A stretch of 64,000 nucleotides of DNA from assembly GCF_016401385.1 (NCBI RefSeq), contig NZ_JAEACF010000001.1, positions 310,001 through 374,000 of the forward strand. The letters run 5' to 3'. How positions within the stretch are numbered: the first letter of the stretch is position 1; each line of letters begins with the position of its first letter. This document shows, piece by piece, positions 8,861 through 38,539 of the stretch. The position numbers were made by a program, and so were the translations under genes. Origin of the DNA: Fictibacillus halophilus (GTDB taxonomy: Bacteria > Bacillota > Bacilli > Bacillales > Fictibacillaceae). The notes beneath the pieces were generated by a model, which was not told the origin of the DNA, searched no databases, and saw only the letters and a list, made by a program, of their open reading frames with translations.

Positions 8861-8924
8861 GTTTATAGGCCGCCAAAAAAGTTTATGGGCCGTAAAAAGC
8901 AGTTTATAGGCTTTTCGACAAGCC
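8861..8924. repeat. Intergenic 20/21-bp spaced repeat array with core GTTTATRGGC
   Basis: The core GTTTATAGGC / GTTTATGGGC / GTTTATAGGC starts at 8861, 8881 and 8902, spaced 20 and 21 bp, with A/C-rich variable bases between. The last unit runs into AGGCTTTTCGACAA (8908-8921), the reverse complement of the 14-bp motif also found at 167 and 38419. Successive units are out of frame, so the array is not coding. Confidence 0.75.
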
Positions 8925-9019
8925 TCCTATATATTCGCTGCCTTTAGCAAATCAATGTGTTTTAAATCATCAGATTCGGGAAAAATGATAAACGTAATGG
9001 AATGAAAGGGAGTGTAACA

Positions 9020-9682
9020 ATGACAAAACGAGTATTGATCGTCGTAACGAACCATCAAAACATTGGTAATAACAAGACAGGGCTCTGGTTAGAGGAGTTT
9101 GCGGTTCCTTTCAACGAGTTTCGTGACAAAGGATATGATATTACTGTTAAAAGTATTAAAGGTGGAGATGTCCCGCTAGATCCGAACAGCTTAGAGGGTG
9201 TGGATAAAGAAACCTATAAAGAAGCACTTTCACATCTTGAAGGCACTGCAGAACTTAGTGCTGATGATGCGGTGAGTTATGATGCGATTTATCTACCGGG
9301 TGGTCATGGAACAGTCTTCGATTTCCCGAAGAGTGATGCATTAAAAGAAGTAGTAAGTCAGATGGCACAAACAAACAAAGTAATCGGAAGTGTCTGTCAT
9401 GGCCCTGCTGGACTTACAACGGCAACTCTTAAAGACGGTACACCAATAGTAAAAGGAAAGACAGTTACTGCATTTACCGATGAAGAGGAAGAAGAGATGC
9501 AGCTGACGAAAGAAGTTCCTTTCTTACTCGAAACAAAGCTTCGTGAACTAGGAGCAGAATTTCAACGAGCAGGAAAATGGGAAGATTTCGCCGTAACAGA
9601 CGGCACACTTGTTACAGGACAAAATCCACAATCAAGCAGAAGTGTAGCGCTCCGCATGATTGATGTGTTGGATAAACAATAG
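9020..9682 (+). CDS. DJ-1/PfpI family protein, Hsp31-like
   Basis: A 220-residue class I glutamine-amidotransferase-like protein of the DJ-1/PfpI superfamily. The nucleophile Cys is in GSVCHGPAGL with the adjacent His, and the conserved Glu is in TGLWLEEF. YLPGGHGTVFDFP and VTGQNPQSS match the Hsp31/glyoxalase III subgroup, whose members act on methylglyoxal or as stress chaperones. The role here is inferred from family. The start at ATG 9020 is supported by GGGAGTG; an in-frame ATG 18 bp earlier lacks a site. Monocistronic. Confidence 0.9.
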   Translation: MTKRVLIVVTNHQNIGNNKTGLWLEEFAVPFNEFRDKGYDITVKSIKGGDVPLDPNSLEGVDKETYKEALSHLEGTAELSADDAVSYDAIYLPGGHGTVFDFPKSDALKEVVSQMAQTNKVIGSVCHGPAGLTTATLKDGTPIVKGKTVTAFTDEEEEEMQLTKEVPFLLETKLRELGAEFQRAGKWEDFAVTDGTLVTGQNPQSSRSVALRMIDVLDKQ

Positions 9683-9696
9683 AAGAGGGATAGAAG

Positions 9697-9726
9697 CGAC
9701 CGGCTGAGGCTGGTCGTTTTTTTTTC
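9697..9726 (+). terminator. Rho-independent terminator
   Basis: CGACCGGC (9697-9704) pairs with GCTGGTCG (9709-9716), followed by a T-run of about ten. Confidence 0.85.
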
Positions 9727-9874
9727 TAAAAAAGTATCAATAATTATCCATTATCAAAGAATCCTCTTCAGAACTTAATTTATTCAGTAAAAAATAGAAG
9801 GACTTAAGACCTATGACTCATAACCAGCGCTAAAAAGAACTGGAAAGAAGTTAGGGACAATTTATCATTGACGA

Positions 9875-9889
9875 TGATAATCATTATCA
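9875..9889. promoter_or_regulatory. Fur box 1 (perfect 7-1-7)
   Basis: TGATAATCATTATCA is a perfect match to the Bacillus 7-1-7 Fur inverted repeat TGATAATNATTATCA. It overlaps a TTGACG (9868-9873) that may be the -35 element; a clean -10 at standard spacing is not visible. The rest of the 9727-9963 spacer shows no gene. Confidence 0.9.
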
Positions 9890-9915
9890 ATTAAGGTTAT
9901 ACATGTAATCAATAA

Positions 9916-9930
9916 TGAGAATCATTTTCA
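9916..9930. promoter_or_regulatory. Fur box 2
   Basis: TGAGAATCATTTTCA is a second 7-1-7 Fur-type repeat, 41 bp downstream of the first and 34 bp before the first siderophore gene. Tandem boxes suggest tight iron repression of the operon. Confidence 0.82.
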
Positions 9931-9963
9931 ATAATGTGTCGGATAATCTACTAGGAGGAATAA

Positions 9964-11313
9964 ATGATGAGCATGTTACAAATAGAAATGAACGAAAAAT
10001 ACTTAAAACAACAAGAAAAACGAGAATCAAATGCAAGATCTTATCCACGCCGCATTCCGATTGCCATTGAAGAAGCAGAAGGCATCTATGTGAAAGATGC
10101 TGATGGGAAAACATATATAGATTGTCTGGCAGGAGCAGGAACTCTTGCGCTTGGGCATAATCACCCGGTAGTCATAGACGCTATCGAGAAAGTGCTTCAT
10201 GACAAGCGCCCTTTACATACACTGGATTTAACGACGCCAGTAAAAGAGGAATTCGTAAGTGAAGTGTTTGATAGTTTACCAGAAGAATTCGCAAAACGTG
10301 CAAAGATTCAATTCTGTGGACCGACTGGAGGAGATGCAATTGAAGCAGCAATCAAGCTTGTAAAAACAGCAACTGGTAGAAGAAGCATCCTATCATTCCA
10401 AGGAGGCTATCACGGTGCTACGCACGGAACGATGGCGCTATCTGGTAACTTAGGGCCGAAACAGAGCGTGCAAGGATTGATGCCAGATGTACACTTTATG
10501 CCATATCCATATGAATACCGCTGTCCGTTCGGAATGGGTGGAGAAGACACGTGGAAAATCAGTGCTAACTATATCGAGAACCTTTTATATGATCCTGAAA
10601 GCGGAATCCTTCCTCCAGCGGCTATGATCTTAGAAGTTGTACAAGGAGAAGGTGGATCTATTCCGGCACCAGTTGAGTGGCTGCGTGAGATCCGCCGCAT
10701 CACGAAAGAGCGTAACATTCCATTGATTATTGATGAAGTGCAGACAGGAATAGGTCGTACAGGGAAGCTATTTGCTTTTCAGCATGCAGGAATCGTACCG
10801 GATGTAGTCGTTCTGTCCAAAGCGATCGGTGGAAGCTTGCCATTATCTGTCGTGATCTATGATCGTGAACTGGATAAATGGGGTCCTGGTGCGCATATCG
10901 GAACGTTTAGAGGAAACCAGATGGCGATGGCAGCTGGAACAGCAACGCTGCGTCATATTAAAGAAAACAACTTATCACAGCATGCTGCTGAACTTGGCGA
11001 GAAGCTTATGCTTGAACTTTCGATCCTACAAAATGAGATTCCTGAGATCGGTGATGTTCGAGGTCGAGGATTGATGGTAGGAGCAGAAATTGTGAACCCG
11101 CGCATTCCAACTGGATTAAAAGGAACATATGCCGCAAACCCTGAACTCGCTAGCCGTATTCAACGAGAATGCTTTAACAGAGGATTAATCTTAGAAGTAG
11201 GCGGAAGGCATGGGAGTGTAGTCCGATTCTTGCCACCACTTATCATAACAGAGGAACAACTGGACGAAGTAATCGCAATATTTACAGATGCGGTAAGAGC
11301 CGCACTAAAATAG
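9964..11313 (+). CDS. rhbA: Diaminobutyrate--2-oxoglutarate aminotransferase (siderophore precursor)
   Basis: A 449-residue class III PLP aminotransferase that makes L-2,4-diaminobutyrate from aspartate semialdehyde. PLP ligands are visible: the QFCGPTGGDAIEAAIKL phosphate loop, FQGGYHGATHG, the Asp in LIIDEVQTGIGRTG, and the Schiff-base Lys in VVLSKAIGG. Length is typical. It is the first gene of the Fur-controlled operon, with AGGAGG upstream of ATG 9964. Its pairing with a diaminobutyrate decarboxylase shows that the operon makes 1,3-diaminopropane, the amine arm of schizokinen/rhizobactin-type siderophores. Confidence 0.93.
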   Translation: MMSMLQIEMNEKYLKQQEKRESNARSYPRRIPIAIEEAEGIYVKDADGKTYIDCLAGAGTLALGHNHPVVIDAIEKVLHDKRPLHTLDLTTPVKEEFVSEVFDSLPEEFAKRAKIQFCGPTGGDAIEAAIKLVKTATGRRSILSFQGGYHGATHGTMALSGNLGPKQSVQGLMPDVHFMPYPYEYRCPFGMGGEDTWKISANYIENLLYDPESGILPPAAMILEVVQGEGGSIPAPVEWLREIRRITKERNIPLIIDEVQTGIGRTGKLFAFQHAGIVPDVVVLSKAIGGSLPLSVVIYDRELDKWGPGAHIGTFRGNQMAMAAGTATLRHIKENNLSQHAAELGEKLMLELSILQNEIPEIGDVRGRGLMVGAEIVNPRIPTGLKGTYAANPELASRIQRECFNRGLILEVGGRHGSVVRFLPPLIITEEQLDEVIAIFTDAVRAALK

Positions 11314-11322
11314 AGGTGCTAG

Positions 11323-12816
11323 ATGAACACAACTGATTTTGATCGCTTTTTCCTTAATGATAGTGAAGCAGGTATACAGAGCTTTCAGCATATCATCGTT
11401 GAAACAAAACAGCTGTTAAGCAAGTTTTATAAAGGGAATTCAGATGCTTTTAACGGCGTGCTACCTGCAGAGATTGAGAAAGAGATAAACGAACTAACAC
11501 TCACTTCGAGTGATGGAGAAAAACCAGTAACCGTATTAAACGATGTTTTGGAGAAGATCGTGAGAAACAGCATTCATGTTTCTCATCCGACAAGTATGGG
11601 ACACCTTCATTGTCCACCGCTTATCCCCGCCATTGCTGCTGAAATGATCATAGGAACACTCAATCAATCAATGGATTCGTGGGATCAAAGCTCAACGGCA
11701 ACTTACTTAGAAGAGCGGCTGATCAAATGGGTAAGTAACAAGCTTGCTCTTCCTTCATCAGCAGACGGAACATTCACGAGTGGTGGGACTCAATCGAACT
11801 ATATGGGATTGTTACTCGCTCGAGATTTCTTTTGTAATAAACGATGGGGATGGAATGTTAAAGCTCAAGGATTGCCACCAGAGTCGCATAAGCTTCGTAT
11901 TCTATGTTCCGAAGATGCTCACTTTACCGTGAAGAAGTCAGCTTTTCAATTAGGGTTAGGTGAACAGGCCGTCGTAACGATTGAAACGGATGAATGTAAA
12001 AAGTTAAACACAGCTAAATTAATGGAAGAGATCGAGCGCTTGAAAAGTGGCGGACTTATCCCTATGTGTGTAGTAGCAACAGCCGGAACAACGGATTTCG
12101 GCAGTATTGACCCAATTCAAGAGGTTGCTGCTATTGCTCAAAACCATGGATTGTGGCTTCATGTTGATGCAGCTTACGGGGGTGCGTTACTTCTAAGTAA
12201 AAAGCATTTTCATAAGTTAGCAGGAATTGAGCAAGCGGATTCCATTACGATAGATTTTCATAAGCAGTTTTATCAACCGATCAGCTGTGGTGCGTTCTTC
12301 GTAAAAGATAGAGCAAATTTCAAATATATCGCACATCATGCAGACTATTTAAATCCCGAGAACGATGAAGAAGATGGCCTCGTTCACCTAGTAAGCAAAT
12401 CGGTTCAAACAACAAGGCGTTTTGATGCGTTGAAGCTTTTCATGTCATTACGCATCGTCGGCGAAAAGAACTTCGCCAATATGATTGATTATACGCTTCA
12501 TCTTGCAAAACAGGCAGCAGGTGTGATGGATCAGCACCCACAGATTGAAGTGTGCAACATAAAGCCTGAGATTAATGCGATTGTATTCCGTTTTAATGAC
12601 GCAGCGTCAGATTCATTAAATGAACTGAATACGTATATCTATAAAAAAATTCTTTATACAGGAACAGCTCTGGTCGCGAAAACAAAAGTGAAGGATGAAG
12701 TCTTTTTAAAGTTTACGTTACTGAATCCACGAACAACAATCGTGGATATTGAAGATATTCTTCATAGCATTTCTCAATTTGCAGCTGAGTACGAAAACAG
12801 GGGGATCACCCAATGA
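11323..12816 (+). CDS. rhbB: L-2,4-diaminobutyrate decarboxylase
   Basis: A 497-residue group II PLP decarboxylase that converts 2,4-diaminobutyrate to 1,3-diaminopropane. HVDAAYGGALLLS contains the PLP-contacting Asp, and the Schiff-base Lys lies in DFHKQFYQP (H-K in place of the H-K/N-K of glutamate and aromatic decarboxylases). TSGGTQSNYMGLLLAR is the substrate and phosphate loop. It starts 9 bp after the aminotransferase and ends overlapping the next gene by 4 bp. The call over glutamate or tyrosine decarboxylase rests on the neighbour that makes diaminobutyrate. Confidence 0.92.
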   Translation: MNTTDFDRFFLNDSEAGIQSFQHIIVETKQLLSKFYKGNSDAFNGVLPAEIEKEINELTLTSSDGEKPVTVLNDVLEKIVRNSIHVSHPTSMGHLHCPPLIPAIAAEMIIGTLNQSMDSWDQSSTATYLEERLIKWVSNKLALPSSADGTFTSGGTQSNYMGLLLARDFFCNKRWGWNVKAQGLPPESHKLRILCSEDAHFTVKKSAFQLGLGEQAVVTIETDECKKLNTAKLMEEIERLKSGGLIPMCVVATAGTTDFGSIDPIQEVAAIAQNHGLWLHVDAAYGGALLLSKKHFHKLAGIEQADSITIDFHKQFYQPISCGAFFVKDRANFKYIAHHADYLNPENDEEDGLVHLVSKSVQTTRRFDALKLFMSLRIVGEKNFANMIDYTLHLAKQAAGVMDQHPQIEVCNIKPEINAIVFRFNDAASDSLNELNTYIYKKILYTGTALVAKTKVKDEVFLKFTLLNPRTTIVDIEDILHSISQFAAEYENRGITQ

Positions 12817-14600
12817 CAAATCATAAACAACGAGCAGAAAATGCAAGCATACAGAGTTTTTTAAACTGCTATCTTCGAGAAACACAAGCATTTGTTAACG
12901 TTGAAGATACGGTTGATCATTTAGGATGGAGTGGGGAGACTCCGAACAGATGGGTGAAGATTGAACTCAAGAAACAAGGTTCAGCCATCTTTGCGGCAAT
13001 CAAGCATTGGTCTTTAACAGGCAGACATCTGTTCCACTTTCCTATTCTTTATCAGAACAGTGAAAACATGATAGCACTTGATTACATTTCGCTTGTCTCC
13101 ATTCTTTCTAAAGAATTATTGCTGAAACAAGATCGTGAGGATGCAGAAGATGAATTGATGCTGCGGACGATACTTAGCAAGAAGAACATCCAACGGTACT
13201 TAGAAGCACGTGAAGATGACTCCGTAAATCTAGAAAGCAGTGAATTTACATTCATTGAAGCAGAGCAGTCGCTTTTGTTTGGTCATCTGCTTCACCCGAC
13301 TCCAAAAAGCAAGCAAGGAATGAGTGATGAAGAGGAATCTCTCTATTCCCCAGAACTTAAAGGAACATTCCAGCTACATTTCTTTAAGGCGGATAGATCC
13401 ATTGTAGATCAGGATACAGCAGATGAGGTGATAGCTGAAGAGATTACTAGAATGCTTCTTCAACGAGATGAGAAGTTCGTCAAACAAAACGAGCTTGATG
13501 AAGAGTCGATCTTCCTACCTGCACATCCATTACAAGTTCCAGTGTTACTGAATGATCTCAATGTTCAAACATTAATCAAAGATGGCAAGTTGAGCTACAT
13601 CGGTCCATTCGGTGAGCTGTTCTCAGCAACATCTTCTATGCGTTCTGTATACAGTCCAAAATTCAAATATATGTTCAAATTCTCTGTACCTGTGAAGATT
13701 ACGAATTCACTGCGCGTTAATCTGGAAAAAGAACTGCACAGAGGAGTAGAAGTTTCGCGACTTATGCAATCAAAAATCGGACAAGAGATGAAGGAGATCT
13801 ATCCAGCATTTCAGATCATAAAAGATCCGGCATTCTTAAATATCCCAACTGATAAAGAAATATCTGGCTTTGAAGTGGTGATCAGAGAGAATCCTTTTTA
13901 CGATAATGATAAAAATGCGAGTTTAATAGCAGGACTTTGTCAGGACCACGGTTTTGGAGGGAACTCTAGAATTGCCTCAATCATTCATGACATCGCTCAA
14001 AGGGAGAACAGAACGACAGAAGATGTCAGCAAAGATTGGTTCGAACAATATTTATCAATCGCTCTAGATCCAATGCTGTGGCTGTATGAAAGATACGGTG
14101 TTGCGCTCGAGGCACATCAGCAGAACTCGATCGTTCAATTGGAGAATGGCTATCCGAAGCGTTTTTATTACCGTGATAATCAAGGTTACTATTACAGCGA
14201 ATCAAAAGCCGATTTGCTCGTTGAACAGCTTCCAAGCCTTAACCGTAAGAGTGTAACGATCTGCAGCGACGAGGTCGCGATCGAGCGCTTCCGTTATTAT
14301 TTTTTCATGAACCATCTTTTTGGTTTGATTAATGGCTTTGGAGCAGCAAATCTTGTCGAAGAAGAAGAACTTATGAACATGCTGCGTCATCGCTTGATGC
14401 ACCATGATACGTTAACTGACGGAAAATCAAGCCTGATTAGAAGCTTACTAGATGCAAAAGAACTTCCTTGTAAAGCGAACTTGCTTACTCGTTTTCATGA
14501 TATGGATGAGCTTGTAGGTTCACTGGAAACACAGTCTGTCTACACGAAGATTCCAAACCCATTACAAAAGGTGTTGAAATCAGATGCAGCCAGAATTTAG
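12813..14600 (+). CDS. rhbC: IucA/IucC-family NIS siderophore synthetase (first of two)
   Basis: A 595-residue ATP-dependent synthetase of the NRPS-independent siderophore family, which condenses citrate with a hydroxamate amine by adenylation. Signature parts are LPAHPLQV (about 231-238), SATSSMRSVYSPKFKYMFKF with the conserved S-x-R-T/S ATP-site element and following K, and EAHQQNS in the FhuF-like C-terminal part. ATG 12813 overlaps the decarboxylase stop as ATGA. Together with the second synthetase at 17657 it would add the two arms to citrate; which acts first cannot be told. Confidence 0.93.
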   Translation: MTNHKQRAENASIQSFLNCYLRETQAFVNVEDTVDHLGWSGETPNRWVKIELKKQGSAIFAAIKHWSLTGRHLFHFPILYQNSENMIALDYISLVSILSKELLLKQDREDAEDELMLRTILSKKNIQRYLEAREDDSVNLESSEFTFIEAEQSLLFGHLLHPTPKSKQGMSDEEESLYSPELKGTFQLHFFKADRSIVDQDTADEVIAEEITRMLLQRDEKFVKQNELDEESIFLPAHPLQVPVLLNDLNVQTLIKDGKLSYIGPFGELFSATSSMRSVYSPKFKYMFKFSVPVKITNSLRVNLEKELHRGVEVSRLMQSKIGQEMKEIYPAFQIIKDPAFLNIPTDKEISGFEVVIRENPFYDNDKNASLIAGLCQDHGFGGNSRIASIIHDIAQRENRTTEDVSKDWFEQYLSIALDPMLWLYERYGVALEAHQQNSIVQLENGYPKRFYYRDNQGYYYSESKADLLVEQLPSLNRKSVTICSDEVAIERFRYYFFMNHLFGLINGFGAANLVEEEELMNMLRHRLMHHDTLTDGKSSLIRSLLDAKELPCKANLLTRFHDMDELVGSLETQSVYTKIPNPLQKVLKSDAARI

Positions 14601-15168
14601 TTTCTATGATCTCACCATCCAAAAGACGTTATCGTTTGTAAAAGTAGATTTGGAGCGAGATGTATCACTTCTCCATAAGTGGCAGCAGCAACCGTATGTG
14701 ATTCCATACTGGAAACTGGATGTCTCGTTTGAAGAATACAGAAAGCATTTAGAAACTTTTTTGGCAGATCAGCATCAAACACTTTACCTAGGCTTAATAG
14801 ACGGAGTTCCGATGAGCTATTGGGAAGCATACTGGGTCAAGGGTGATGTGGTGGAAAATTGCTATGAGCCACATCCTGAAGATCAGGGAATCCATCTTTT
14901 GATCGGTGTAGAAGCCTTTATTGGAAAGGGTTACGCACTTCCTTTATTACGTGCGATCGTGCATTTTCAATTTTTATCAAAAGGGACTGAGAAGGTAATC
15001 GCTGAACCTGATATTCGGAATGAAAAGATGATACATGTATTTGAAAAGTGCGGTTTTGAAAAAGTAAAAGCAATCGAGCTGCCGGATAAAACGGGAATGC
15101 TTATGTATTGTCATAGAGAAACTTTTGAGAGGAGATGGAAAGATGTCTTTCAAACCGTCACAACATAA
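14584..15168 (+). CDS. rhbD: Hydroxylamine N-acyltransferase, RhbD/IucB-like
   Basis: A 194-residue GNAT-fold acyltransferase of the siderophore type (IucB/RhbD/AlcB). LLHKWQQQPYVIPYW (about residues 28-42) matches the family signature H-x-W-x5-V-x2-[FY]W. GKGYALPLLRAI is the acyl-CoA loop, and DIRNEKMIHVFEKCGF is typical of this subgroup. It is expected to acylate N-hydroxy-1,3-diaminopropane, with acetyl-CoA if the product is schizokinen. The start overlaps the upstream synthetase by 17 bp and the stop overlaps the hydroxylase by 26 bp, so translation is tightly coupled. Confidence 0.9.
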   Translation: MQPEFSFYDLTIQKTLSFVKVDLERDVSLLHKWQQQPYVIPYWKLDVSFEEYRKHLETFLADQHQTLYLGLIDGVPMSYWEAYWVKGDVVENCYEPHPEDQGIHLLIGVEAFIGKGYALPLLRAIVHFQFLSKGTEKVIAEPDIRNEKMIHVFEKCGFEKVKAIELPDKTGMLMYCHRETFERRWKDVFQTVTT

Positions 15169-19462: not shown

Positions 19463-19472
19463 CTATAAAATG

Positions 19473-19506
19473 AGGACTTCCTTTTAAACCAAGGGAGTCC
19501 TTTTTT
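19473..19506 (+). terminator. Terminator of the siderophore operon
   Basis: AGGACTTCCTT (19473-19483) pairs with AAGGGAGTCCT (19491-19501) with one G-U pair, then six T. Confidence 0.9.
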
Positions 19507-19517
19507 GTGTGCTTTTA

Positions 19518-19627
19518 GGTGGTGAGTTTCAATTTATCGGTGGAAAGAGACTTTGTTCAGGTGGTTATTACCATGTTACCGGTGGTCGCGTCGCTACTTC
19601 AGGTGGAAAGACAGCATTTACCGGTGA
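19518..19627. repeat. Intergenic exact 21-bp-period array with core GGTGG
   Basis: GGTGG begins at 19518, 19539, 19560, 19581 and 19602, and GGTGA at 19623: six units at exactly 21 bp. Bases before the core alternate between TTCA and TTAC/TTATC; the other roughly 10 bp per unit vary. Because 21 is seven codons, the plus strand reads [FY]-R-W every seven residues between stops at 19523 and 19625, but there is no start codon or ribosome binding site. The remaining spacer to 19743 shows nothing else. Confidence 0.8.
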
Positions 19628-19743
19628 ACGTGTAACAAAAATAAGAACACGTACCGTAAAAGGCATGCATTTAATCTGAAACTTCTGTTTTTTCACTTTC
19701 GTATGTAATATTATGGTAATAAGGTGTGAGGAGGGGGATGAAT

Positions 19744-20142: not shown

Positions 20143-20159
20143 GTTGAGGGTGTAACGAT

Positions 20160-21258: not shown

Positions 21259-21280
21259 TACAGAGAAAGAAGTGATTGTA

Positions 21281-26707: not shown

Positions 26708-26725
26708 CCATATTTTTTTATGTTT

Positions 26726-26745
26726 TATAATTAACAAATTGTTAA
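26726..26745 (+). promoter_or_regulatory. -10 box and operator 2 upstream of pncA
   Basis: TATAAT (26726-26731) overlaps by one base the perfect 7-1-7 palindrome TTAACAA-A-TTGTTAA (26731-26745). A good -35 is not visible; TTACTA at 26701 would need 19-bp spacing. The position implies direct repression of pncA-pncB-nadD-nadE by the NrtR-type protein. Confidence 0.75.
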
Positions 26746-26781
26746 TAGTTAGACAAAAAACAATATTAGGAGGCAGTTACG

Positions 26782-27330: not shown

Positions 27331-27352
27331 ATCATTCTTGGAGGTAATGGAA

Positions 27353-29447: not shown

Positions 29448-29462
29448 CAGGAGGGATTATCG

Positions 29463-30281: not shown

Positions 30282-30283
30282 TG

Positions 30284-30340
30284 ACAACAGCTGATTCAAA
30301 AAGGTACTTACGAAGTACCTTGGGGTCAGCTGTTGTTTTG
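30284..30340 (+). terminator. Terminator of the NAD salvage operon
   Basis: ACAACAGCTGA (30284-30294) pairs perfectly with TCAGCTGTTGT (30326-30336), and an inner hairpin GGTACTT/AAGTACC sits in the loop. A short T-run follows. Confidence 0.85.
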
Positions 30341-30492
30341 CATTTTATTTAAATATTTTAAAAAGAAGTTAACTTTCAGCTATTTTTGGAAAAAATATAA
30401 ATAAACTAGTGAAAGATGCAAAAAACGTTTACGGGACTATTGATTTAGGGAAGAGCCTTATAAATACCTTATGAGCGCATGGAGGATTATAG

Positions 30493-31359: not shown

Positions 31360-31369
31360 ATAGTGTTTA

Positions 31370-31402
31370 AATAGTCTTTGCCAGCGGCAAAAGGCTATTT
31401 TT
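31370..31402 (+). terminator. Rho-independent terminator
   Basis: AATAGTCTTTGCC (31370-31382) pairs with GGCAAAAGGCTATT with one bulge, followed by TTTTATT. Confidence 0.75.
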
Positions 31403-31516
31403 ATTGGCTGAAGATCAACCTTTGTAGGTGCTAAGCTTTAAACTGTCTGTTTTAGACGTATTTTTAATGCTGCAGGGTAAAGAGTACTATTCTTTGACCT
31501 AGGAGGCAATTTAAAG

Positions 31517-31645
31517 AGAGCTATTACTTTTCTTGATACGTTTGACCCCACCGAAATGATTACGCACAAAGTACCTTTAGAAAAAGCGGATAAGAAGTTT
31601 AACAAACACGAAGATGAATGTATAAAGGTTGTCCTAAAGCCTTAG
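31517..31645 (+). pseudogene. Decayed C-terminal end of a zinc-type alcohol dehydrogenase
   Basis: Forty-two codons in one frame read ...FLDTFDPTEMITHKVPLEKAD, then KKFNKHEDECIKVVLKP and TAG. The pattern D-P-T-E-x-I-T-H-x-x-P-L-E-K-A and the ending C-I-K-V-V-L-K-P are those of the last 40 residues of MDR-family alcohol/formaldehyde dehydrogenases. Four or so residues (normally A-Y-E-I-F) are missing between KAD and NKHED, and nothing dehydrogenase-like lies upstream. It is a remnant, probably left by a deletion, filling the gap after the DDAH-like gene. Confidence 0.7.
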
Positions 31646-31661
31646 TTGCATGAAACTAAAT

Positions 31662-31690
31662 AAGGAACTTGGATGGCCAAGTTCCTTTCT
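31662..31690. terminator. Terminator, shared
   Basis: AAGGAACTTGG (31662-31672) pairs perfectly with CCAAGTTCCTT (31677-31687). The stop of the minus-strand histidine kinase lies at its edge, so it mainly serves that gene. Confidence 0.85.
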
Positions 31691-32840
31691 ATATTTCTAT
31701 TTGTGAGTTTTCTTCTGCCAGTGTGGTATCAGTACCTTGAAGGGGAAGAACGATAGTGAAGGTCGTTATGTTATCATCGGATGAACAACTGATGGACCCG
31801 TTATGTTTTTCAATAATTTTTTTACATACAAATAGTCCAATACCTGTACCTAATTCTTTTGTTGTAAAGAACGGCTCAAAAATCGTACTGATTGTTTCGG
31901 GTGGAATAGCTGGGCCGTTATTAGAAATAGTAATATGTACGTTATCGTTATTTTCGATCTTACTAAAAATCATGATTCGTCGATTCTGTCTCATTTGGCG
32001 CAACGCATCGATCGAGTTCATGATGAGATTAAGCAGAACTTGTTTCAACTCGTCCTTGTGTGCCCGCAGCGTAATCGTAGGATCAATGCGGGGAATTACT
32101 GTCACATCTGCATCCACTAAACTCGGGTACATAAAATCTAGAATATCTGTGAACAAATCTTCTAAAGCAAAATCCTCCGCTTCTCGTTCTTGTACTCCTT
32201 TTCTTGAGGCGTGAAGAAATTGAGAGATACGAAAGTTTAATTGTGTTAATTCATGACTGATGATATCAATGTATTTCATGTTTGGATCTTCTTGCTGCAT
32301 GAGCTTTACAAATCCCATTACAGCTGTCAATGGATTTCTGAACTCATGTACAAAACTCGATGACATTTGTCCTAAAATGGTTAAACGTTCTTTGTGACTT
32401 TGGTCAATGAATACTGTTTTTTCCTCAATCTCAATATCCTTTAGCTGAGTATACTTCTTAACCGCATGATATAAAAACTCATCAAAAAGGGAATTGATCG
32501 TTTCAATTACAGGTTGTAACTGTTCAATGGATATGCCAGAGCCCGTCACGAAACGGACAATCTCACTTCTTCCAAGGTTTACATTGTATACAAATTCACC
32601 TATATTGATCTTAGCTTCCAACCGCTGTACAGCTACTTCATGTGCGAGGCGCATAATTTCTTCGGGAGATAGTTTACGTCGTAAGGACTGTTTAACTAGC
32701 TCAACCATATGCAGGGCATTATCTATAACTTTTTCTTTATGTACATCATGATTCGATATCACGATTCTCTGGTGCCAATCATGTAAGTAAGTAGGCAAGT
32801 TATCATCCATATATGTGATTAGACTTTCTGTTATGTCCAC
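31689..32840 (-). CDS. Cytoplasmic sensor histidine kinase (orphan, sporulation-kinase-like)
   Basis: A 383-residue kinase. Residues about 1-110 are a helical sensor part resembling the RsbRD N-terminal domain (YMDDNLPTYLHDWHQRIVIS). The phosphoacceptor His165 is in SSSFVHEFRNPLTAVMGF, and the ATPase domain has LNLIMNSIDAL, NNGPAIPPE and GTGIGLFVCKKII. GTG 32840 sits six bases after AGAGGTG and removes an upstream hydrophobic stretch that the longer frame (from 33029) would add, so the protein is cytoplasmic. No response regulator is adjacent, as for kinases that feed the Spo0F phosphorelay. Confidence 0.88.
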   Translation of the reverse strand: MDITESLITYMDDNLPTYLHDWHQRIVISNHDVHKEKVIDNALHMVELVKQSLRRKLSPEEIMRLAHEVAVQRLEAKINIGEFVYNVNLGRSEIVRFVTGSGISIEQLQPVIETINSLFDEFLYHAVKKYTQLKDIEIEEKTVFIDQSHKERLTILGQMSSSFVHEFRNPLTAVMGFVKLMQQEDPNMKYIDIISHELTQLNFRISQFLHASRKGVQEREAEDFALEDLFTDILDFMYPSLVDADVTVIPRIDPTITLRAHKDELKQVLLNLIMNSIDALRQMRQNRRIMIFSKIENNDNVHITISNNGPAIPPETISTIFEPFFTTKELGTGIGLFVCKKIIEKHNGSISCSSDDNITTFTIVLPLQGTDTTLAEENSQIEI

Positions 32841-33261
32841 CGCTCGCACCTCTTTCAACATTAAAATCATGGAAAGAATAAAAAATGAATCAGCCAACGT
32901 TTGATATATAAAAGTATTTATACTACATATAGTAATGGAAATATAGACGAAATGCCATATGCAGTTTACAAATTTTTCATTAAATTGTGAAAATGATGTA
33001 GGTATTTCGACAGAGAGCAACGAAATCATTCATAATCTTCTGTTATTTACTTTTCGGTACGCATGAAATACTATCCTTTAAATTTTAAATACTATTTGAA
33101 ATAATTATTGTGATTTTATCTACATCATGGAATGGTGATGAACTCTATCCAGCCTTTCCATCTGCTTCGTCTCATCAATAACTACTCATGAGATAATTGG
33201 TATAGTACAATCTTGACATCACATACCCTTAAACGACATGCAATCGTGAGGAGGGAATTTC
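32841..33261. other. 421-bp divergent intergenic region
   Basis: No gene is seen. It separates the minus-strand kinase from the plus-strand catalase. An extended -10 candidate, TGG-TATAGT (33198-33206), lies 55 bp before the catalase start without a convincing -35. AT-rich stretches at 32900-32945 may hold the kinase promoter but match no consensus well. Confidence 0.5.
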
Positions 33262-34158
33262 ATGTTTAAACGCTTTAACCGGCTGGCGATCGAACTGCCA
33301 ACACCTACGAATCCTGATGCGAATGCCGCTGCTGCAGTTCAAGAATTGCTAGGCGGTCGTTTTGGTGAGATGTCGACACTTAATAACTATATGTATCAAT
33401 CTTTTAACTTTAGAAAAAGAGGAAAATTAAAACCTTTTTTTGATCTCGTCTCGAGTATTACGGCAGAAGAATTTGGGCATGTCGAGCTTGTTTCACATAC
33501 GATTAATATGATGATCTATGGTACGACACATCCTGGAGATGTCAACGACGCACCGATGGCAGCAGCTACCGATAAGAGGAACACACAGCATTTTATTGGA
33601 ACAGCACAAACATCGTTCCCGTTTGATTCAATGGGAAAAGCTTGGAACGGAGATTATGTATTCAGCAGTGGGAATCTACTTCTTGATCTCCTTCACAACT
33701 TCTTCTTAGAGTGTGGAGCCAGAACCCATAAGATGAGAGTTTATGAGATGACGAGTAACCCTGTTGCCAGAGAGATGATTGGTTATCTTCTTGTACGCGG
33801 TGGTGTGCACGTTTTGGCATATGCAAAAGCGATTGAGATGGTAACAGGAGTTGATATTAAGAAGATGCTTCCAGTTCCTGATCTAGAGAACTCAGCATTT
33901 GAAACAACACGAAAATTTGAAGCAGAAGGAGTACACCGAAAGTTATATACGTTCAGTGATACCGATTATCGAGATATCGCTTTAATCTGGGCTGGTCAGC
34001 ATCCGTTAGGAGGGCCGCTTGAGACTGTAATCGGTGCTCCAGCAGGTGCTCCAATGCCTGAATTACGCTCCATATCAGAAGAGTTCGCGCCAGGTATCTC
34101 TCATGAAGATTTTATGCAGATTGCTGAAAGACTGAAGAAAAATGCAGGAATAAGTTGA
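33262..34158 (+). CDS. Manganese catalase
   Basis: A 298-residue non-heme catalase with a ferritin-like four-helix bundle and dimanganese centre, which dismutates hydrogen peroxide. Likely ligands are Glu in GRFGEMSTLNNYM, Glu and His in ITAEEFGHVELV, Glu in FFLECGARTHK and His in GGVHVLAYAKA. The N-terminus FKRFNRLAIELPTP is typical, and the protein resembles B. subtilis YdbD. GAGGAGGGAATTTC gives a strong start. It is a single gene closed by a terminator; oxidative-stress or spore expression would fit the family. Confidence 0.94.
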   Translation: MFKRFNRLAIELPTPTNPDANAAAAVQELLGGRFGEMSTLNNYMYQSFNFRKRGKLKPFFDLVSSITAEEFGHVELVSHTINMMIYGTTHPGDVNDAPMAAATDKRNTQHFIGTAQTSFPFDSMGKAWNGDYVFSSGNLLLDLLHNFFLECGARTHKMRVYEMTSNPVAREMIGYLLVRGGVHVLAYAKAIEMVTGVDIKKMLPVPDLENSAFETTRKFEAEGVHRKLYTFSDTDYRDIALIWAGQHPLGGPLETVIGAPAGAPMPELRSISEEFAPGISHEDFMQIAERLKKNAGIS

Positions 34159-34161
34159 TCG

Positions 34162-34189
34162 ACCGGCGTACCTTGCGTCGGTTTTTTTT
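34162..34189 (+). terminator. Rho-independent terminator
   Basis: ACCGGCG (34162-34168) pairs with CGTCGGT (34176-34182) with one G-U pair, then eight T. Confidence 0.88.
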
Positions 34190-34245
34190 ATGGTATGATT
34201 TATTATGTTTATAGAATTTGTGAGAAATGAAGGGAAGTCCGGCAG

Positions 34246-35067
34246 ATGACGTACAGACAAATTAAGTGGTTGATCCTGCTCATTCCAACGATTTCCGTTG
34301 GTTTATGGGAATACGTTAGACATACGGTTCTATTGCCTTATATATCCATGAACACGGGAAACTGGCTGTCTGCCATCATCGTATTTCTTGTTACGCTTTA
34401 TTTTTTGAATATCTTGTTTGGAAGATTAGAGCGCATGCAGCAAGAGCTTCAGAGAGAACGTTCTGAGAAGGCGGTCTTAGAAGAACGGGAGAAAATTGCG
34501 AAAGAGCTGCATGATGGTATCGCTCAGTCTTTATTTTTTCTCTCTGTTCAAGTGAATAAGCTAGAAAGTGAGTTTAGTAGAGATGATAAATCGTATCATA
34601 AACTAAAAAAAACCTTGCAGCACATTCACGATGATACGCGAAGTGCCATTCAAAATCTTCGAAACGTACCAGCTCAAGCTGATATTTCGTGGACACGATC
34701 ATTAAATGCATTCTTCAATGAAATGGAGAGTCAGCATGACTTCAAGATACATCGCGAGTGGAGTTTGAATGACGATGATCTAACTTCAAAGGAAAAAATC
34801 GAGTTGTTTGCTTGTGTACGTGAAGCAATCATCAATGTTATCAAACACGCTGATACGAACGAAATATGGTTGAATACGACAACTACTCCAAAAGGATGGA
34901 TATGTACCGTTGAGGATCAAGGATCAGGATTTGATTCTCAAAAGCCTACAGATGGATTCGGACTAAAAATTTTACAAGACAGAGCGTATTCTATGGACTG
35001 GAAATTAAAAATCGCCAGCACGGAAGGGAAAACGACGGTTACGGTAGAGAAGGAGGAAAATGCATGA
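34246..35067 (+). CDS. NarL-type sensor histidine kinase
   Basis: A 273-residue membrane kinase of the HisKA_3 class. Two transmembrane helices (about residues 7-25 and 41-58) flank a very short outside loop, so the signal is probably sensed in the membrane. A coiled coil (about 59-85) leads to His89 in IAKELHDGIAQSLFF, the phosphoacceptor. The ATPase part has VREAIINVIKHA, VEDQGSGFD and GFGLKILQDRA. AAGGGAAG precedes ATG 34246. It overlaps its response regulator by 4 bp (ATGA), and PepSY and SCO genes follow. Confidence 0.92.
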   Translation: MTYRQIKWLILLIPTISVGLWEYVRHTVLLPYISMNTGNWLSAIIVFLVTLYFLNILFGRLERMQQELQRERSEKAVLEEREKIAKELHDGIAQSLFFLSVQVNKLESEFSRDDKSYHKLKKTLQHIHDDTRSAIQNLRNVPAQADISWTRSLNAFFNEMESQHDFKIHREWSLNDDDLTSKEKIELFACVREAIINVIKHADTNEIWLNTTTTPKGWICTVEDQGSGFDSQKPTDGFGLKILQDRAYSMDWKLKIASTEGKTTVTVEKEENA

Positions 35068-35696
35068 CGCAGCCTATTCGTTTATTGATTGTCGATGATC
35101 ATCATCTTGCTCGAGAAGGTGTCAAAGAGATTCTTGAGTGTCAGACCGAGTTTGAGATAGTAGGTGAAGCATCTAATGGTTTACAAGCAGTAGAGAAGAC
35201 TAAAGCTCTTATGCCAGATCTTGTTCTTATGGATATATCGATGCCGAAGATGAATGGTTTTGAGGCAACTAAAGAAATTAAGAAGCAGTTTCCAAACGTA
35301 AAAGTAGTGATTATGACGGTTTCTTATGACATTACGGACTGGTTTGAAGCTTTAAAGCGTGGTGCACAAGGATACCTTCTCAAAAATTTGAACACAGAAG
35401 ATATGCTGAACGGTTTGAAAGCATATGCTATGGATGAAATTCCGATGTCGAAAGAGATGGCTTTTCGAATATGGAAAGAATTCAAGAAGGATGGACAAGC
35501 TGAGCAAACACTTTCTGCCAGGGAACAGGATGTATTACAACTGGTAGCAAAGGGGCATTCGAATAAGGAAATCTCGAAAGTACTCAATATTTCTGAGAAT
35601 ACTGTCAAAACCCATATGAAGAATATTTTAGGAAAACTGCATCTAGAAAATCGTGTCCAATTAGCAAGCTATGCTTACGATAACGGTATCGTTTAA
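35064..35696 (+). CDS. NarL/LuxR-family response regulator
   Basis: A 210-residue regulator. The receiver domain (1-120) shows the acidic pocket IVDDHH, phosphoacceptor Asp57 in LVLMDISMPKMNG, and Lys in GYLLKNL. The C-terminal LuxR-type HTH has LSAREQDVLQLVAKGHSNKE, then ISENTVKTHMKNILGKL. The ribosome binding site GGAGG lies within the kinase end. A 24-bp inverted repeat 36 bp downstream of the stop, just before the PepSY gene, is a candidate binding site for this protein. Confidence 0.93.
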   Translation: MTQPIRLLIVDDHHLAREGVKEILECQTEFEIVGEASNGLQAVEKTKALMPDLVLMDISMPKMNGFEATKEIKKQFPNVKVVIMTVSYDITDWFEALKRGAQGYLLKNLNTEDMLNGLKAYAMDEIPMSKEMAFRIWKEFKKDGQAEQTLSAREQDVLQLVAKGHSNKEISKVLNISENTVKTHMKNILGKLHLENRVQLASYAYDNGIV

Positions 35697-35732
35697 TTTA
35701 AAGCGTCATACAATGGACACATTTTTATTTTC

Positions 35733-35756
35733 GTAATCACCCTTTAGAGTGATTAC
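35733..35756. promoter_or_regulatory. Inverted repeat GTAATCAC-N8-GTGATTAC, candidate operator
   Basis: GTAATCAC (35733-35740) and GTGATTAC (35749-35756) are perfect 8-bp arms around CCTTTAGA. There is no T-run, so it does not look like a terminator. It lies 60 bp before the PepSY gene start, downstream of the response regulator gene. Confidence 0.6.
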
Positions 35757-35815
35757 CATTTCATGCTTGTTGTTTATACTTTTCCATATTGAGTACGAAT
35801 AAGGAGAATATAAAT

Positions 35816-37189
35816 ATGCAAGCAACAGCTTACAAGCTACCAGAAAGCAATGAAAATCCATCAAAGACATCTAACAGTCTCTACCAGACGTTTTGGAGAT
35901 GGCATTTTTATGGTGGGATTATCTTTGCACCTTTTTTAATCTTACTTGCTATTAGTGGCGCGTTATATTTATTTCAAGCTGAAATTGAGACGATGATCTA
36001 CAAAGACAAGATCATTGTTCAAAAAGGCGATCAATCACTTCCGCTCTCACAGCAGATTGACACAGTTCTAGCGGAGTACCCTGGAGCAGAGATTGGTTCA
36101 ATCAGATTGCCGAAAGAAGATACTCGAGCTACTTTAGTAAAAGTTATAGAAAATGATGTGGTTACACAGGTTTATGTAAACCCATACACAGCGTCTATAA
36201 CAGGAACGATGCTTGACGAAGATCATTTCAAAAATGTTGTCGCTAAGCTACACAGTGAATGGATTGTTGGAGGAACGTTCATCAATAGGTTCGTTGAACT
36301 GGCTGCATGTTGGACGATCATCATATTGATTACAGGCTTATACATATGGTGGCCAAGAAACAAGAAGACTTTCATGGGAACGATCTTTCCTCGTTTAAAA
36401 AAGAGAGGCCGCATGTTCTGGAGAGACCTTCACGCAGTAACAGCATTCTGGCTATCGCTGATGATTTTGATCCTAATCGTGACAGGGCTGCCATGGTCAG
36501 GTGTGATGGGAGAACAGATAAATAAGCTCGCGACGAATGCAAATGCAGGCTATCCAACTTATGCATTCATGGCGCCAACAGCAGAGAAGACAACAGGTGA
36601 GATCGCAGAAGACATTCCGTGGGCAACTGAGAACAACCCTGCACCAGCATCAAAAAAAGATGATGGATCCCTCTCTGTTGATCAAGTGATGTACTTAGCT
36701 CAAGAGAACAAGATTCAAAAGCCTTACACGATTTCATTGCCCAGAGGAGAAGATGGCGTATTTACGATTGCTTCTTCACGAGATAAACCGGAAAATGAAG
36801 CGACGGTTTATTTTAACCAGTATAACGGAGAAATCGTAGAGGATATAAGGTTTAGTGACTATGGATGGATGGCTAAGGCCATATCGATTGGAATCGCACT
36901 GCATGAAGGTCATTATTTTGGTCTTGCTAACCAGATTTTAGGAGCGATAGCTGCTCTTGGTTTAGTGGCGATCGTCATCTTCTCACTCATCATGTGGAAA
37001 AAGCGTAAACCTTCTGGAAAATTAGGAGTGCCAAAGAAATCGGACAAGAAGCTAAAGCCGTGGATTATCGTCCTCATGATCATTACAGGTATTGTTATGC
37101 CTCTTGCAGGTATATCTTTTGTCTTCGTATTCTTACTAGATCGTTTTGTTATACCACGAGTAAAACCGCTTCAGGCATGGCTGTCATAA
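35816..37189 (+). CDS. PepSY-associated transmembrane protein
   Basis: A 457-residue membrane protein of the PepSY_TM family. Membrane segments are visible at about residues 27-47 (GGIIFAPFLILLAISGALYLF), 160-180 (AACWTIIILITGLYIWWPR), 203-225 (AFWLSLMILILIVTGLPWSG), about 380-400 (AIAALGLVAIVIFSLIMW) and near the C-terminus. Large outside loops hold the PepSY domains. The family is linked to iron or copper reduction and uptake. AAGGAG places the start at ATG 35816; an in-frame TTG 27 bp earlier has no site. The SCO gene follows after 22 bp. Confidence 0.88.
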   Translation: MQATAYKLPESNENPSKTSNSLYQTFWRWHFYGGIIFAPFLILLAISGALYLFQAEIETMIYKDKIIVQKGDQSLPLSQQIDTVLAEYPGAEIGSIRLPKEDTRATLVKVIENDVVTQVYVNPYTASITGTMLDEDHFKNVVAKLHSEWIVGGTFINRFVELAACWTIIILITGLYIWWPRNKKTFMGTIFPRLKKRGRMFWRDLHAVTAFWLSLMILILIVTGLPWSGVMGEQINKLATNANAGYPTYAFMAPTAEKTTGEIAEDIPWATENNPAPASKKDDGSLSVDQVMYLAQENKIQKPYTISLPRGEDGVFTIASSRDKPENEATVYFNQYNGEIVEDIRFSDYGWMAKAISIGIALHEGHYFGLANQILGAIAALGLVAIVIFSLIMWKKRKPSGKLGVPKKSDKKLKPWIIVLMIITGIVMPLAGISFVFVFLLDRFVIPRVKPLQAWLS

Positions 37190-37211
37190 TATTATTAGAG
37201 GTGAACTTATC

Positions 37212-37853
37212 ATGAAAAGAATGATGTTAATTTTCGGACTTGTGCTGACGATAGCAATCTTATCAGCATGCGGTTCAGGTGGATCCAAGGACGAACACGA
37301 GAATCATAAGAACCACGAACAACATAATACCGAAAGCAAGGAGACGTCTCAGTCATTAGACTGGGACGTTCAGTCGTTTTCTTTCAAAGACCAAAACGAA
37401 GCTGAATTTGGGTTGGAAGACTTAAAGGGTAAAGTGTGGATGGCGAATTTTATCTTCACGAACTGTACGACAGTTTGTCCGCCGATGACTGCTCATATGG
37501 CTAAACTTCAAGATATGGCAAAAGAAGAGAGTGTAGATGTGGAATTTGTTTCTTTCTCTATCGATCCAAAAAGAGATAATGCTGAGGCATTGAAGAAGTT
37601 TGGTGAAAACTATGACGCGGACTTCTCCAACTGGCACTTCCTGGGTGGTTATGAACAAAAACAAATTGAACAATTAGCAAAAGATTCATTCAAAACACCT
37701 GTAGTGGCTGATCCTAACTCAGATCAATTCATCCATGCGACTGCATTTTTTTTAGTTAATAAAGAAGGAAAAGTAGTCTCTAGATATGATGGAGTAGAGA
37801 ATACGCCGTACGAAGAAATCATTGCAGATATGAAAAATAGACTAAAAAAGTAA
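37212..37853 (+). CDS. SCO1/SenC-family lipoprotein (copper delivery to cytochrome oxidase)
   Basis: A 213-residue lipoprotein: a signal peptide ends at the lipobox LSAC with Cys20 as the lipid-modified residue. A His-rich linker (about 28-38) may bind metal. The thioredoxin-like domain has FTNCTTVCPPM (Cys85 and Cys89, the CxxxC copper site) and the conserved His in FIHATAFFLV. SCO proteins deliver copper to the CuA site of cytochrome oxidase or act as thiol reductases. It is transcribed with the PepSY gene next to a two-component pair, so the four genes may answer copper or respiratory state. Confidence 0.93.
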   Translation: MKRMMLIFGLVLTIAILSACGSGGSKDEHENHKNHEQHNTESKETSQSLDWDVQSFSFKDQNEAEFGLEDLKGKVWMANFIFTNCTTVCPPMTAHMAKLQDMAKEESVDVEFVSFSIDPKRDNAEALKKFGENYDADFSNWHFLGGYEQKQIEQLAKDSFKTPVVADPNSDQFIHATAFFLVNKEGKVVSRYDGVENTPYEEIIADMKNRLKK

Positions 37854-37921
37854 AGAAGCATTATTTTATAGTGAAAATAGAGCAAACACCCGAGTGGAAA
37901 AATGAAAGGGAATTCAAAGAG

Positions 37922-37954
37922 AAATAGTTGGGGGTCTGACCCCAACTATTTTTT
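37922..37954 (+). terminator. Rho-independent terminator with GGGG-TCTGA-CCCC head
   Basis: AAATAGTTGGGG (37922-37933) pairs perfectly with CCCCAACTATTT (37940-37951) around GTCTGA, then TTTT. Confidence 0.9.
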
Positions 37955-37980
37955 GCATTTGTTCACACAATAGTTATGGT

Positions 37981-38010
37981 TTGGAAGTCTAACTTCTACA
38001 TACTTATGAT
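37981..38010 (+). promoter_or_regulatory. Likely SigA promoter of the DUF3817 gene
   Basis: TTGGAA (37981-37986), 18 bp, TATGAT (38005-38010), about 50 bp before the start codon. Confidence 0.55.
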
Positions 38011-38060
38011 AAAACTATAGATAGAATCGTCATTATGTGATAATGGAGGTAAATTCATTT

Positions 38061-38342
38061 ATGAATCCGATAAAAACGTTAAAAACAGTGGGATATCTTG
38101 AAGGTGCTTCGTTCCTAATCCTTCTTTTCATCGCCATGCCACTGAAGTATTTCTTAGATCAGCCGATGGCCGTATCAATCGTTGGTGCTCTTCATGGTCT
38201 GTTGTTCGTTCTTTACATTTTAGTCATTCTGTATGTGTACAACGTGAAGAAGTGGCCGATCATGCGCGCATTCTTGGCGCTGTTATCCTCTGTCTTGCCA
38301 TTCGGACCGTTCATTTTCGACCGCAAGTTTTTAAAAGATTAA
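38061..38342 (+). CDS. DUF3817 small membrane protein
   Basis: A 93-residue integral membrane protein with three helices. GYLEGASFLILLFIAMPLKY, VGALHGLLFVLYILVILYVY and LLSSVLPFGPFIFDRKFL are the conserved blocks of DUF3817 (YdzA-type), including the G-x-x-E, HG and PFGPF-x-x-D motifs. Function is unknown. GGAGGT lies about 10 nt before ATG 38061; the longer frame from 38037 does not match the family start. Monocistronic. Confidence 0.88.
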   Translation: MNPIKTLKTVGYLEGASFLILLFIAMPLKYFLDQPMAVSIVGALHGLLFVLYILVILYVYNVKKWPIMRAFLALLSSVLPFGPFIFDRKFLKD

Positions 38343-38349
38343 TACTGCT

Positions 38350-38385
38350 AAAAGAGAGACTGCTTTTCGTAGGCTCTCTTTTTTT
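38350..38385 (+). terminator. Rho-independent terminator
   Basis: AAAAGAGAG pairs with CTCTCTTTT with a mismatch-containing upper stem (ACTG...TAGG), followed by a T-run. Confidence 0.8.
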
Positions 38386-38418
38386 GTTACTTAAAAGGTA
38401 GAGAGGGTGTATCATGAT

Positions 38419-38539
38419 TTGTCGAAAAGCCTTTATTTTTCAATTTAAACTTAATTGCTATCGATTTAGACTTAATTAATTTATTTTAGACTTAATTACT
38501 AGCAAATTAGACTTAATCACTCTCGATCTCGACTTAATT
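38419..38539. repeat. Intergenic 20/21-bp spaced repeat array with core TTTAGACTTAATT
   Basis: The exact 14-mer TTGTCGAAAAGCCT (38419-38432) leads into five cores whose ACTTAAT begins at 38449, 38470, 38490, 38511 and 38532, spaced 21, 20, 21 and 21 bp. The core is roughly ATTTAGACTTAATT and the 7-9 bases between cores differ. The odd 20-bp step breaks any reading frame. The rest of the 38540-38759 spacer shows no gene. Confidence 0.8.

Follow-up and report, generated by a model that had tools for sequence, protein, structure and literature searches.

The intergenic DNA of Fictibacillus halophilus contains a genome-wide class of short direct repeats set 20 or 21 bp apart. The repeated core words are conserved and the spacer length is fixed, units are gained and lost whole, and one core word can take the place of another at the same site. 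Three such arrays lie in the stretch analyzed here, 64,000 nucleotides of contig NZ_JAEACF010000001.1 (positions 310,001 to 374,000; hereafter the window). Judging from these sequence patterns, we regard the arrays as probable, though by no means certain, helically phased docking platforms for sequence-specific DNA-binding proteins.

A first-pass annotation made from the sequence alone had pointed out the three arrays and their common period; coordinates, shuffles, and intergenic autocorrelation bear it out and place the arrays in a genome-wide class (Table 1). Array 1 is as described there, with the core GTTTATRGGC spaced 20 and 21 bp. Its 5-mer pairs at lags 20/21 were equalled in 3 of 2000 dinucleotide shuffles of its intergenic region, and when any lag pair from 12 to 41 was allowed, as many pairs were found in 7 of 400 shuffles. 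Array 3, for which no shuffle reached the observed value under either scheme (0 of 2000 and 0 of 400), has the steps proposed for it (21, 20, 21, and 21 bp) but starts at 38444; the position given previously, 38449, falls inside the first core. For array 2, the exact 21-bp spacing holds, but the alleged six copies of GGTGG are five plus one GGTGA. Taken alone, this array has little statistical weight, its value having been reached in 21 of 2000 shuffles at lags 20/21 and in 87 of 400 at any lag pair; we consider it confirmed because GGTG arrays with the same end module recur elsewhere in the genome and in related genomes.

The periodicity was assessed in the window together with the adjoining 400 kb of the same genome (G000), that is, 464 kb with 263 intergenic regions delimited by open reading frame (ORF) length and totaling 63,361 bp. 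Identical intergenic 7-mers form 193 pairs at a distance of 21 bp (shuffle mean, 7.0) and 67 pairs at 20 bp (5.5), and the excess continues at the multiples 42 bp (159 pairs; 4.8), 63 bp (89; 5.0), and 84 bp (95; 4.1). Lags 19 and 22 are at background, with 9 (6.0) and 10 (6.6) pairs, respectively, and coding DNA in the same sample shows the 3-bp codon period only. The 20/21-bp peaks are also present in five congeners (G002, 400 kb; G308, G004, G271, and G003, 200 kb each). The intergenic excess on which the first-pass proposal had been staked is thus found in the sampled genome and in its relatives. Outside the 20/21-bp series, distances in G000 stay close to background except for lag 75, where a smaller excess was seen (21 pairs in 10 regions vs 4.6 in shuffles); lags 18 and 36 are raised in G004 and lag 26 in G271. 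The 464 kb contain 14 counted arrays, which extrapolates to about 100-120 per genome if the sample is taken as typical.

Tandem Repeats Finder (TRF) detected 84 arrays in six genomes, of which we judged 8 to be false (coding repeats, terminators, Fur-like boxes, and AT-rich DNA) and 76 to be real; the full set is used below unless the 76 are specified. A 6-mer next recurs after 21 bp in 63 arrays, after 20 bp in 28, after 19 bp in 4, and after 22 bp in 3 (63, 27, 3, and 2, respectively, among the 76 judged real). Only 21-bp steps are used in 47 arrays, only 20-bp steps in 12, both in 16, and neither in 9, and whole array families employ 20-bp units. The cores, by reading, are non-palindromic direct repeats, and hand-written patterns assign 71 of the 84 arrays to 21 core words, with gradual transitions between some of them. 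A segment of about 6 bp, picked as the G+C-richest of the unit and hence biased, has a G+C fraction of 0.55-0.66; the rest of the unit is AT-rich, with a weak rise in G+C about 12 bp farther on. The median array length is 102 bp (66 arrays), and in some arrays the units are nearly identical. The claim that each locus has its own core is only half right: cores do differ between loci, but they belong to families that turn up at several places, and end modules are common to loci whose cores differ.

Alignment of 12 orthologous sites with the same core (2-6 genomes each, with the reference genome dropped from the scored pairs where at least three genomes were at hand) revealed a difference per position of 0.087 in cores (n = 7902 base comparisons), 0.200 in spacers (n = 10,996), and 0.190 in flanks (n = 33,656). 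Cores differ less than spacers at 11 of the 12 sites and less than flanks at all 12, and spacers differ less than flanks at 5. Small indels are roughly sevenfold rarer within arrays (12 in 7051 aligned bp, or 1.7/kb) than in flanks (128 in 11,304 bp, or 11.3/kb), the remaining indels being 8 of whole units in arrays and 22 large ones in flanks, some of which may be unit changes at array edges. With one genome pair per site, there are 2 indels, each of 1 bp, in 1265 array bp vs 29 in 2226 flank bp (Fisher p = 2e-4; p = 0.003 without flank gaps of at least 10 bp). Spacer letters thus drift like the flank, whereas core letters and spacer length are held, as predicted for a protein array on one face of the DNA and unlike a passive minisatellite. 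Fixed spacing, free spacer letters, and conserved cores thus lend indirect support to the putative phased protein-binding array suggested by the first-pass annotation.

The first-pass annotation missed two recurrent modules at the array ends, namely, a 13-bp head, TTGTCGAAAAGCC (module B), common to arrays 1 and 3, and the end module of array 2 (module A). Compared with other intergenic DNA, array flanks are enriched in the module B word TTTGTCGAA (12 of 168 flanks; 0.3 expected) as well as in GAACGTGTA (9 of 168; 0.13 expected) and ACGTACCGT (10 of 168; 0.43 expected). Module B is polar, with the array on one side of the head only. Periodic DNA follows 16 of the 29 intergenic copies of its word TTGTCGAA and precedes none of them; it follows none of the 24 copies outside the intergenic mask and 5 of the 73 copies of 12 permuted control words taken together. 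The module heads arrays of TATAAA, GACTTAATT, GGACAGTA, and CCCACG/ACGTGCG words. It contains TGTCGAA, the form in which the core of the 0A box, the Spo0A target, is printed in two articles (PMC3485338, PMC5295017), although recognition of module B by Spo0A is only a possibility.

Module A (ACACGTACCGTA) is present in 5-53 copies in 17 of 18 Fictibacillus genomes, with zero copies in G306, and the reversed pattern has no copy in any of the 18. Across 299 genomes of the order, 8 Fictibacillus genomes have many copies of its 13-bp form and 12 other genomes have a single one; the reversed control was present in more genomes (20) than these 12. Like module B, it adjoins arrays of different cores, terminating those of GGTG, GAGCG, GCGTG, GGGCG, and TGTGGAT words. 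In the sampled DNA, 12 of 25 copies (at most one mismatch) lie within 80 bp of a TRF array, and by reading, phased cores precede 23 of the 25; of the other two, one is inside an ORF of G000 and one is in G004. In G004, whose chromosome is a single contig, the plus strand carries 21 of the 26 copies below 2.0 Mb and the minus strand 17 of the 22 beyond that point. Provided that the origin lies at the start of the contig, this distribution agrees with co-orientation with replication, but genes are co-oriented too.

Table 1. Arrays and end modules in the window
Feature	Position	Strand	Description
Array 1	8861..8911	-	Three units; core GTTTATRGGC on +, GCCYATAAAC on -; cores at 8861, 8881, 8902 (steps 20, 21 bp)
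Head module B of array 1	8909..8921	-	TTGTCGAAAAGCC; contains TGTCGAA; overlaps first unit
Array 2	19518..19626	+	GGTGG at 19518, 19539, 19560, 19581, 19602 and GGTGA at 19623, 21 bp apart
End module A	19627..19658	+	AACGTGT-N12-AACACGTACCGTA; forms an inverted repeat, immediately following the final core of array 2
Head module B of array 3	38419..38431	+	TTGTCGAAAAGCC
Array 3	38444..38539	+	Five units; core TTTARACTTAATT at 38444, 38465, 38485, 38506, 38527 (steps 21, 20, 21, 21 bp); TRF score 106
Lone head module B with single TATAAA unit	167..186	+	Head at 167-179

Comparison of orthologous sites in the 18 Fictibacillus genomes (S1, S2, and S3 denote the sites of arrays 1, 2, and 3, respectively) shows that one core family can be replaced by another at the same site. 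Site S2 could be joined in 14 genomes and carries GGTG cores with module A in 5 of these, a TGTGGAT-type array in 3, of which one has module A, TTTGAGCG with module A in 1, and two units of CTATGAGCG with module A in 1; 3 genomes have no array (one retains a remnant of module A), and 1 is too short to tell. Each of the four words is thus followed by module A in one genome or more. Of the 11 genomes in which site S3 was joined, 8 have GACTTAATT units there, preceded by head B in 7 of them and by a diverged head in G001; G009 has ATCACATAA, and 2 have no array, one of which retains a remnant of the head. A further GACTTAATT array comes from G271. Among the 13 genomes joined at site S4, 5 carry GGACAGAT, another 5 carry GGACAGTA and head B, 1 has a single unit, and 2 have none. 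At three further sites, the words of G004 differ from those of the other genomes; the compared span includes extra genes at two of these sites, and at site I the surrounding intergenic DNA differs as well, so that exchange of a longer piece is possible.

Changes in unit number, which the first-pass annotation had suggested looking for between strains, do occur between related genomes, in whole units, at sites S1 and S4. Site S1 was joined in all 18 genomes, 7 of which have head B and TATAAA units (3 units in G000 and about six in G002, G003, G005, G008, G307, and G308), whereas 11 lack the head, two of them with an extra gene; at S4, G000 has 5 units, G008 has 6, and G308 has 7. The lone head with a single TATAAA unit near the start of the window is probably a contracted array because the corresponding site of G003 carries the head and about six units. 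Many arrays persist at orthologous sites across species. Site VII is occupied in G271, and four congeners have there 46-50 bp of intergenic DNA without an array.

Most arrays are located beside a gene's 3' end, and an intergenic region flanked by convergent genes is a frequent setting. The 84 arrays comprise 34 between convergent, 44 between co-directional, and 6 between divergent genes (33, 40, and 3 among the 76 judged real), and intergenic DNA by length is 16%, 64%, and 20%, respectively. In G000 alone, 6 of 16 arrays are convergent (p = 0.03), or 5 of 13 without those judged false (p = 0.04). A terminator-like stem of the preceding gene lies before array 1 (8822-8841) and array 2 (19472-19502); the terminator scan listed none before array 3, where a stem with a T-run was seen by eye.

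The word TTGTCGAAAAGCCTATAAA was found in 47 records, 46 of them from Fictibacillus and the other from Enterococcus durans, where no array stands behind it. Similar arrays of 20-21 bp units exist outside the genus, with three in 100 kb of G176 (same family), one clear array in 200 kb of G016, and others in G263 and G299, which were found by similarity to core family F7 and represent two of the three genera with a match among 116. None was seen in 200 kb of G018 or in 100 kb each of G021 and G023, and no clear one in 100 kb of G025, so that the spread beyond Fictibacillus is patchy in the sampled DNA. Some relatives of the F7 arrays are much longer and may face head to head: in L105, L111, and L114, two arrays of opposite orientation meet at a palindrome. 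L104 and L112 (G263, another family of the order) carry a very long array built from units of about 20 bp, GATAATCGAGCACAAATCCA.

In the docking-platform reading, a unit of 20 or 21 bp would consist of a non-palindromic core of about 6-9 bp, usually GC-richer, and an AT-rich spacer of fixed length, with typically 3-7 units in one direction per array. A protein bound to one core would then sit on the same helix face at every second turn and could touch its neighbors, as on plasmid iterons, and the constant module at one end of many arrays (B, TTTGTCGAA, or A, AACGTGT..AACACGTACCGTA) may provide a nucleating or partner site. We infer a protein ligand, cooperative binding, and a chromosomal role, either organization or insulation at gene ends, rather than control of single genes. 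Several points weigh against this interpretation. Recognition of the approximately 20 cores would take either numerous readers or one of broad specificity, and the families searched in the 18 Fictibacillus genomes yielded no reader protein. Changes in unit number and the 20/21 preference could come partly from slippage. The absence of an array at S1 from 11 of 18 genomes has no obvious consequence, and the F3 site at 67920 shows no difference between core and spacer (0.031 vs 0.022). Furthermore, the core patterns were written from the same arrays, leaving some ascertainment, the orthologous comparisons share ancestry, making the base counts non-independent, and the convergent excess rests on gene calls by ORF length and on pooled, related genomes.

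We tentatively entertain a more specific scenario, less likely than not, of a chromosomal system that keeps site, period, and end module but can change its recognition word, as at S2. It would imply a family of co-evolving two-turn readers, possibly iteron-like, with arrays that might mark gene ends along the chromosome and a TGTCGAA-containing head that could link them to sporulation through Spo0A.

Selfish or neutral minisatellites, in which a unit spreads and expands by slippage and recombination and the period is simply inherited, are a doubtful alternative, albeit one with some observations on its side: unit number changes in whole steps, some arrays consist of nearly identical units, and arrays come and go, as at site VII. 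The conservation pattern described above runs counter to it, as do the 20-21 bp period common to about 20 core words and the fixed polarity of head module B. Searches of one open-access library yielded no description of such arrays in Fictibacillus or Bacillaceae, and the closest precedent found is the STAR element of Staphylococcus, whose lack of a known function would also suit a minisatellite origin. According to the accessible part of PMC3532100, it has a 14-bp consensus, T(G/A/T)TGTTG(G/T)GGCCC(C/A), spacers of at least 40 bp, no known function, and loci that differ between species. As described there, STAR elements and the present arrays alike are dispersed intergenic direct repeats of Bacillales with a short GC-rich core, locus-specific spacers, and changing unit number. 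The Fictibacillus arrays differ in having several cores, a core-to-core step of 20 or 21 bp, and sites often common to several species; two-turn phasing, core exchange at one site, and shared end modules are likewise not described for STAR in that part of the article. Assignment to STAR was rejected, given that the consensus is in none of the listed cores (by reading, with no pattern search) and the spacing of at least 40 bp is not observed. Another set of abundant intergenic direct repeats whose reader is unknown, the TAACTGA repeats of Beggiatoaceae and other bacteria, differs in being a single heptamer located mostly just upstream of start codons, as far as the consulted portion of PMC4679880 indicates.

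It is improbable that the arrays are topology sites devoid of a dedicated reader that attract gyrase or another wrapping protein in the manner of the bacterial interspersed mosaic elements (BIMEs) of enterobacteria. BIMEs and repetitive extragenic palindromes (REPs) are extragenic and frequent near gene ends and between convergent genes, as the arrays are, and the convergent excess and divergent shortage (34 and 6 of 84), the typical length near 100 bp, and the seeming replaceability of core identity would suit such a role. Cores are, however, conserved over spacers, which implies that the sequence is read. Moreover, wrapping should favor a period of 10.5 bp, whereas the autocorrelation of G+C has its peaks at 21 and 42 bp; around 10-11 bp it is close to zero, though not as negative as at 6 or 15 bp. 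REPs are palindromic and tied to the REP-associated tyrosine transposase (RAYT); the array cores are, by reading, direct and non-palindromic, without the alternating orientation or the RAYT link, and the arrays were therefore not classified as REP/BIME. A RAYT-like gene (Y1_Tnp) is present in all 18 genomes, with a single match in 16, but in G000 (L347) its flanks hold GGGGTCAGWCCCC palindromes and no array, so that RAYT was rejected as the spreader of the arrays. A palindrome of the same kind, GGGGTCTGACCCC, lies at 37931-37943 of the window.

Chromosomal copies of plasmid iterons, whether decoys that titrate initiators or relics of lost plasmids, are a very improbable source. Iterons of the Rep_3 (WH1-WH2) type are, like the arrays, tandem, direct, non-palindromic 20-22 bp units in helical phase, and two contigs filed as viral, L349 (1953-2076) and L350 (4736-4843), contain 5-6 units of 21-22 bp whose core, GGTGGACAGAT, resembles those of families F3 and F4. 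In both, the iterons are followed, at a distance of about 115 bp, by an initiator gene whose Rep3_N and Rep3_C matches exceed the cut-off (the two initiators are 47% identical to each other), and these contigs are probably plasmids; the L350 array overlaps a 108-codon ORF on the other strand. The word shared with F3 is GGACAGAT, three copies of which at 20-21 bp were found in L349, L350, and, within ORFs, L348. Overall, core triplets of F3, F4, and F6 occur in 3, 2, and 2 contigs of the viral collection, respectively. The two contigs found with GGACAGTA have it inside ORFs; the matches in L348, L351, and L352 lie in ORFs and that in L353 is irregular. The agreement with L349 and L350 extends little beyond one 8-mer, and a permuted 8-mer also matched 7 contigs, in all 7 inside ORFs.

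Unlike Rep_3 iterons, the arrays are chromosomal and numerous, with many persisting at orthologous sites across species, and no initiator gene was found beside them; the Rep_3 initiator (PF01051) was detected in just 1 of the 18 Fictibacillus genomes and not in G000. Four arrays, of F1, F3, F5, and F7, had no match in 72,556 plasmid records (with the BLAST low-complexity filter on), the F3 array, the only one searched there, had none in phages, and viral contigs contained no exact copy of head B, module A, or the F5 pair. L349 and L350 thus offer, by analogy, an example of what such an array can do in a plasmid without naming the chromosomal reader. The remaining contig matched by the core triplets, L354, a viral contig of 244 kb, contains at 9274-9529 a 20-bp array of ten or more units (ACAAAAACATTGATCACATA) with no ORF over it.

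The arrays are highly unlikely to be remnants of Tn7/Mu-type transposon ends. The transposases of these elements bind 20-22 bp direct repeats, and direct, non-palindromic two-turn units next to a TGT-containing end module would agree with such an origin. We rejected this assignment: the matching TnsB-type DDE transposase (Mu-transpos_C) is encoded in only 4 of the 18 genomes and is absent from 14, including G000, no second, paired end was noticed at the sites read, where no systematic search was made, and each array has many units and often an orthologous counterpart. CRISPR arrays, with repeats of about 23-47 bp, unique spacers of about 30 bp, and cas genes nearby, had been discounted in the first-pass annotation, rightly so by unit length, given that whole units of 20-21 bp are too short. 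Hardly credible is an RNA element or, as the first-pass annotation had also considered, a decayed gene: one frame of array 2 is open throughout and the module A region (19612-19665) folds better than shuffles on both strands (z -3.3 and -3.8), but arrays 1 and 3 include 20-bp steps and most of their frames have stops, entire families are built of 20-bp units, arrays 1 (z -0.6) and 3 (z -0.8) do not fold better than shuffles and array 2 (z -1.7) does so only slightly, and neither Rfam (gathering threshold) nor ARAGORN gave a match within the window.

The window also contains repeats of other kinds. Fourteen 18-bp tandem units (GTCAAGGCGGCGGAGCAG) at 43258-43514 are inside the ORF 42936-43736, which apparently encodes a Gly/Gln-rich repeat protein; a 132-bp unit in 3.8 copies (55889-56394) is inside the ORF 55286-56677; and two 14-bp copies of GGACTTTAATATCT at 2422-2448 form a different short intergenic repeat.

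If the arrays are indeed docking platforms, a spore-forming genus would devote roughly 100 intergenic sites per genome to them, with a code that changes and a geometry that is kept. Such arrays would amount to a natural experiment in the co-evolution of DNA-binding specificity and its sites, and possibly to an unrecognized layer of chromosome organization in Bacillaceae.

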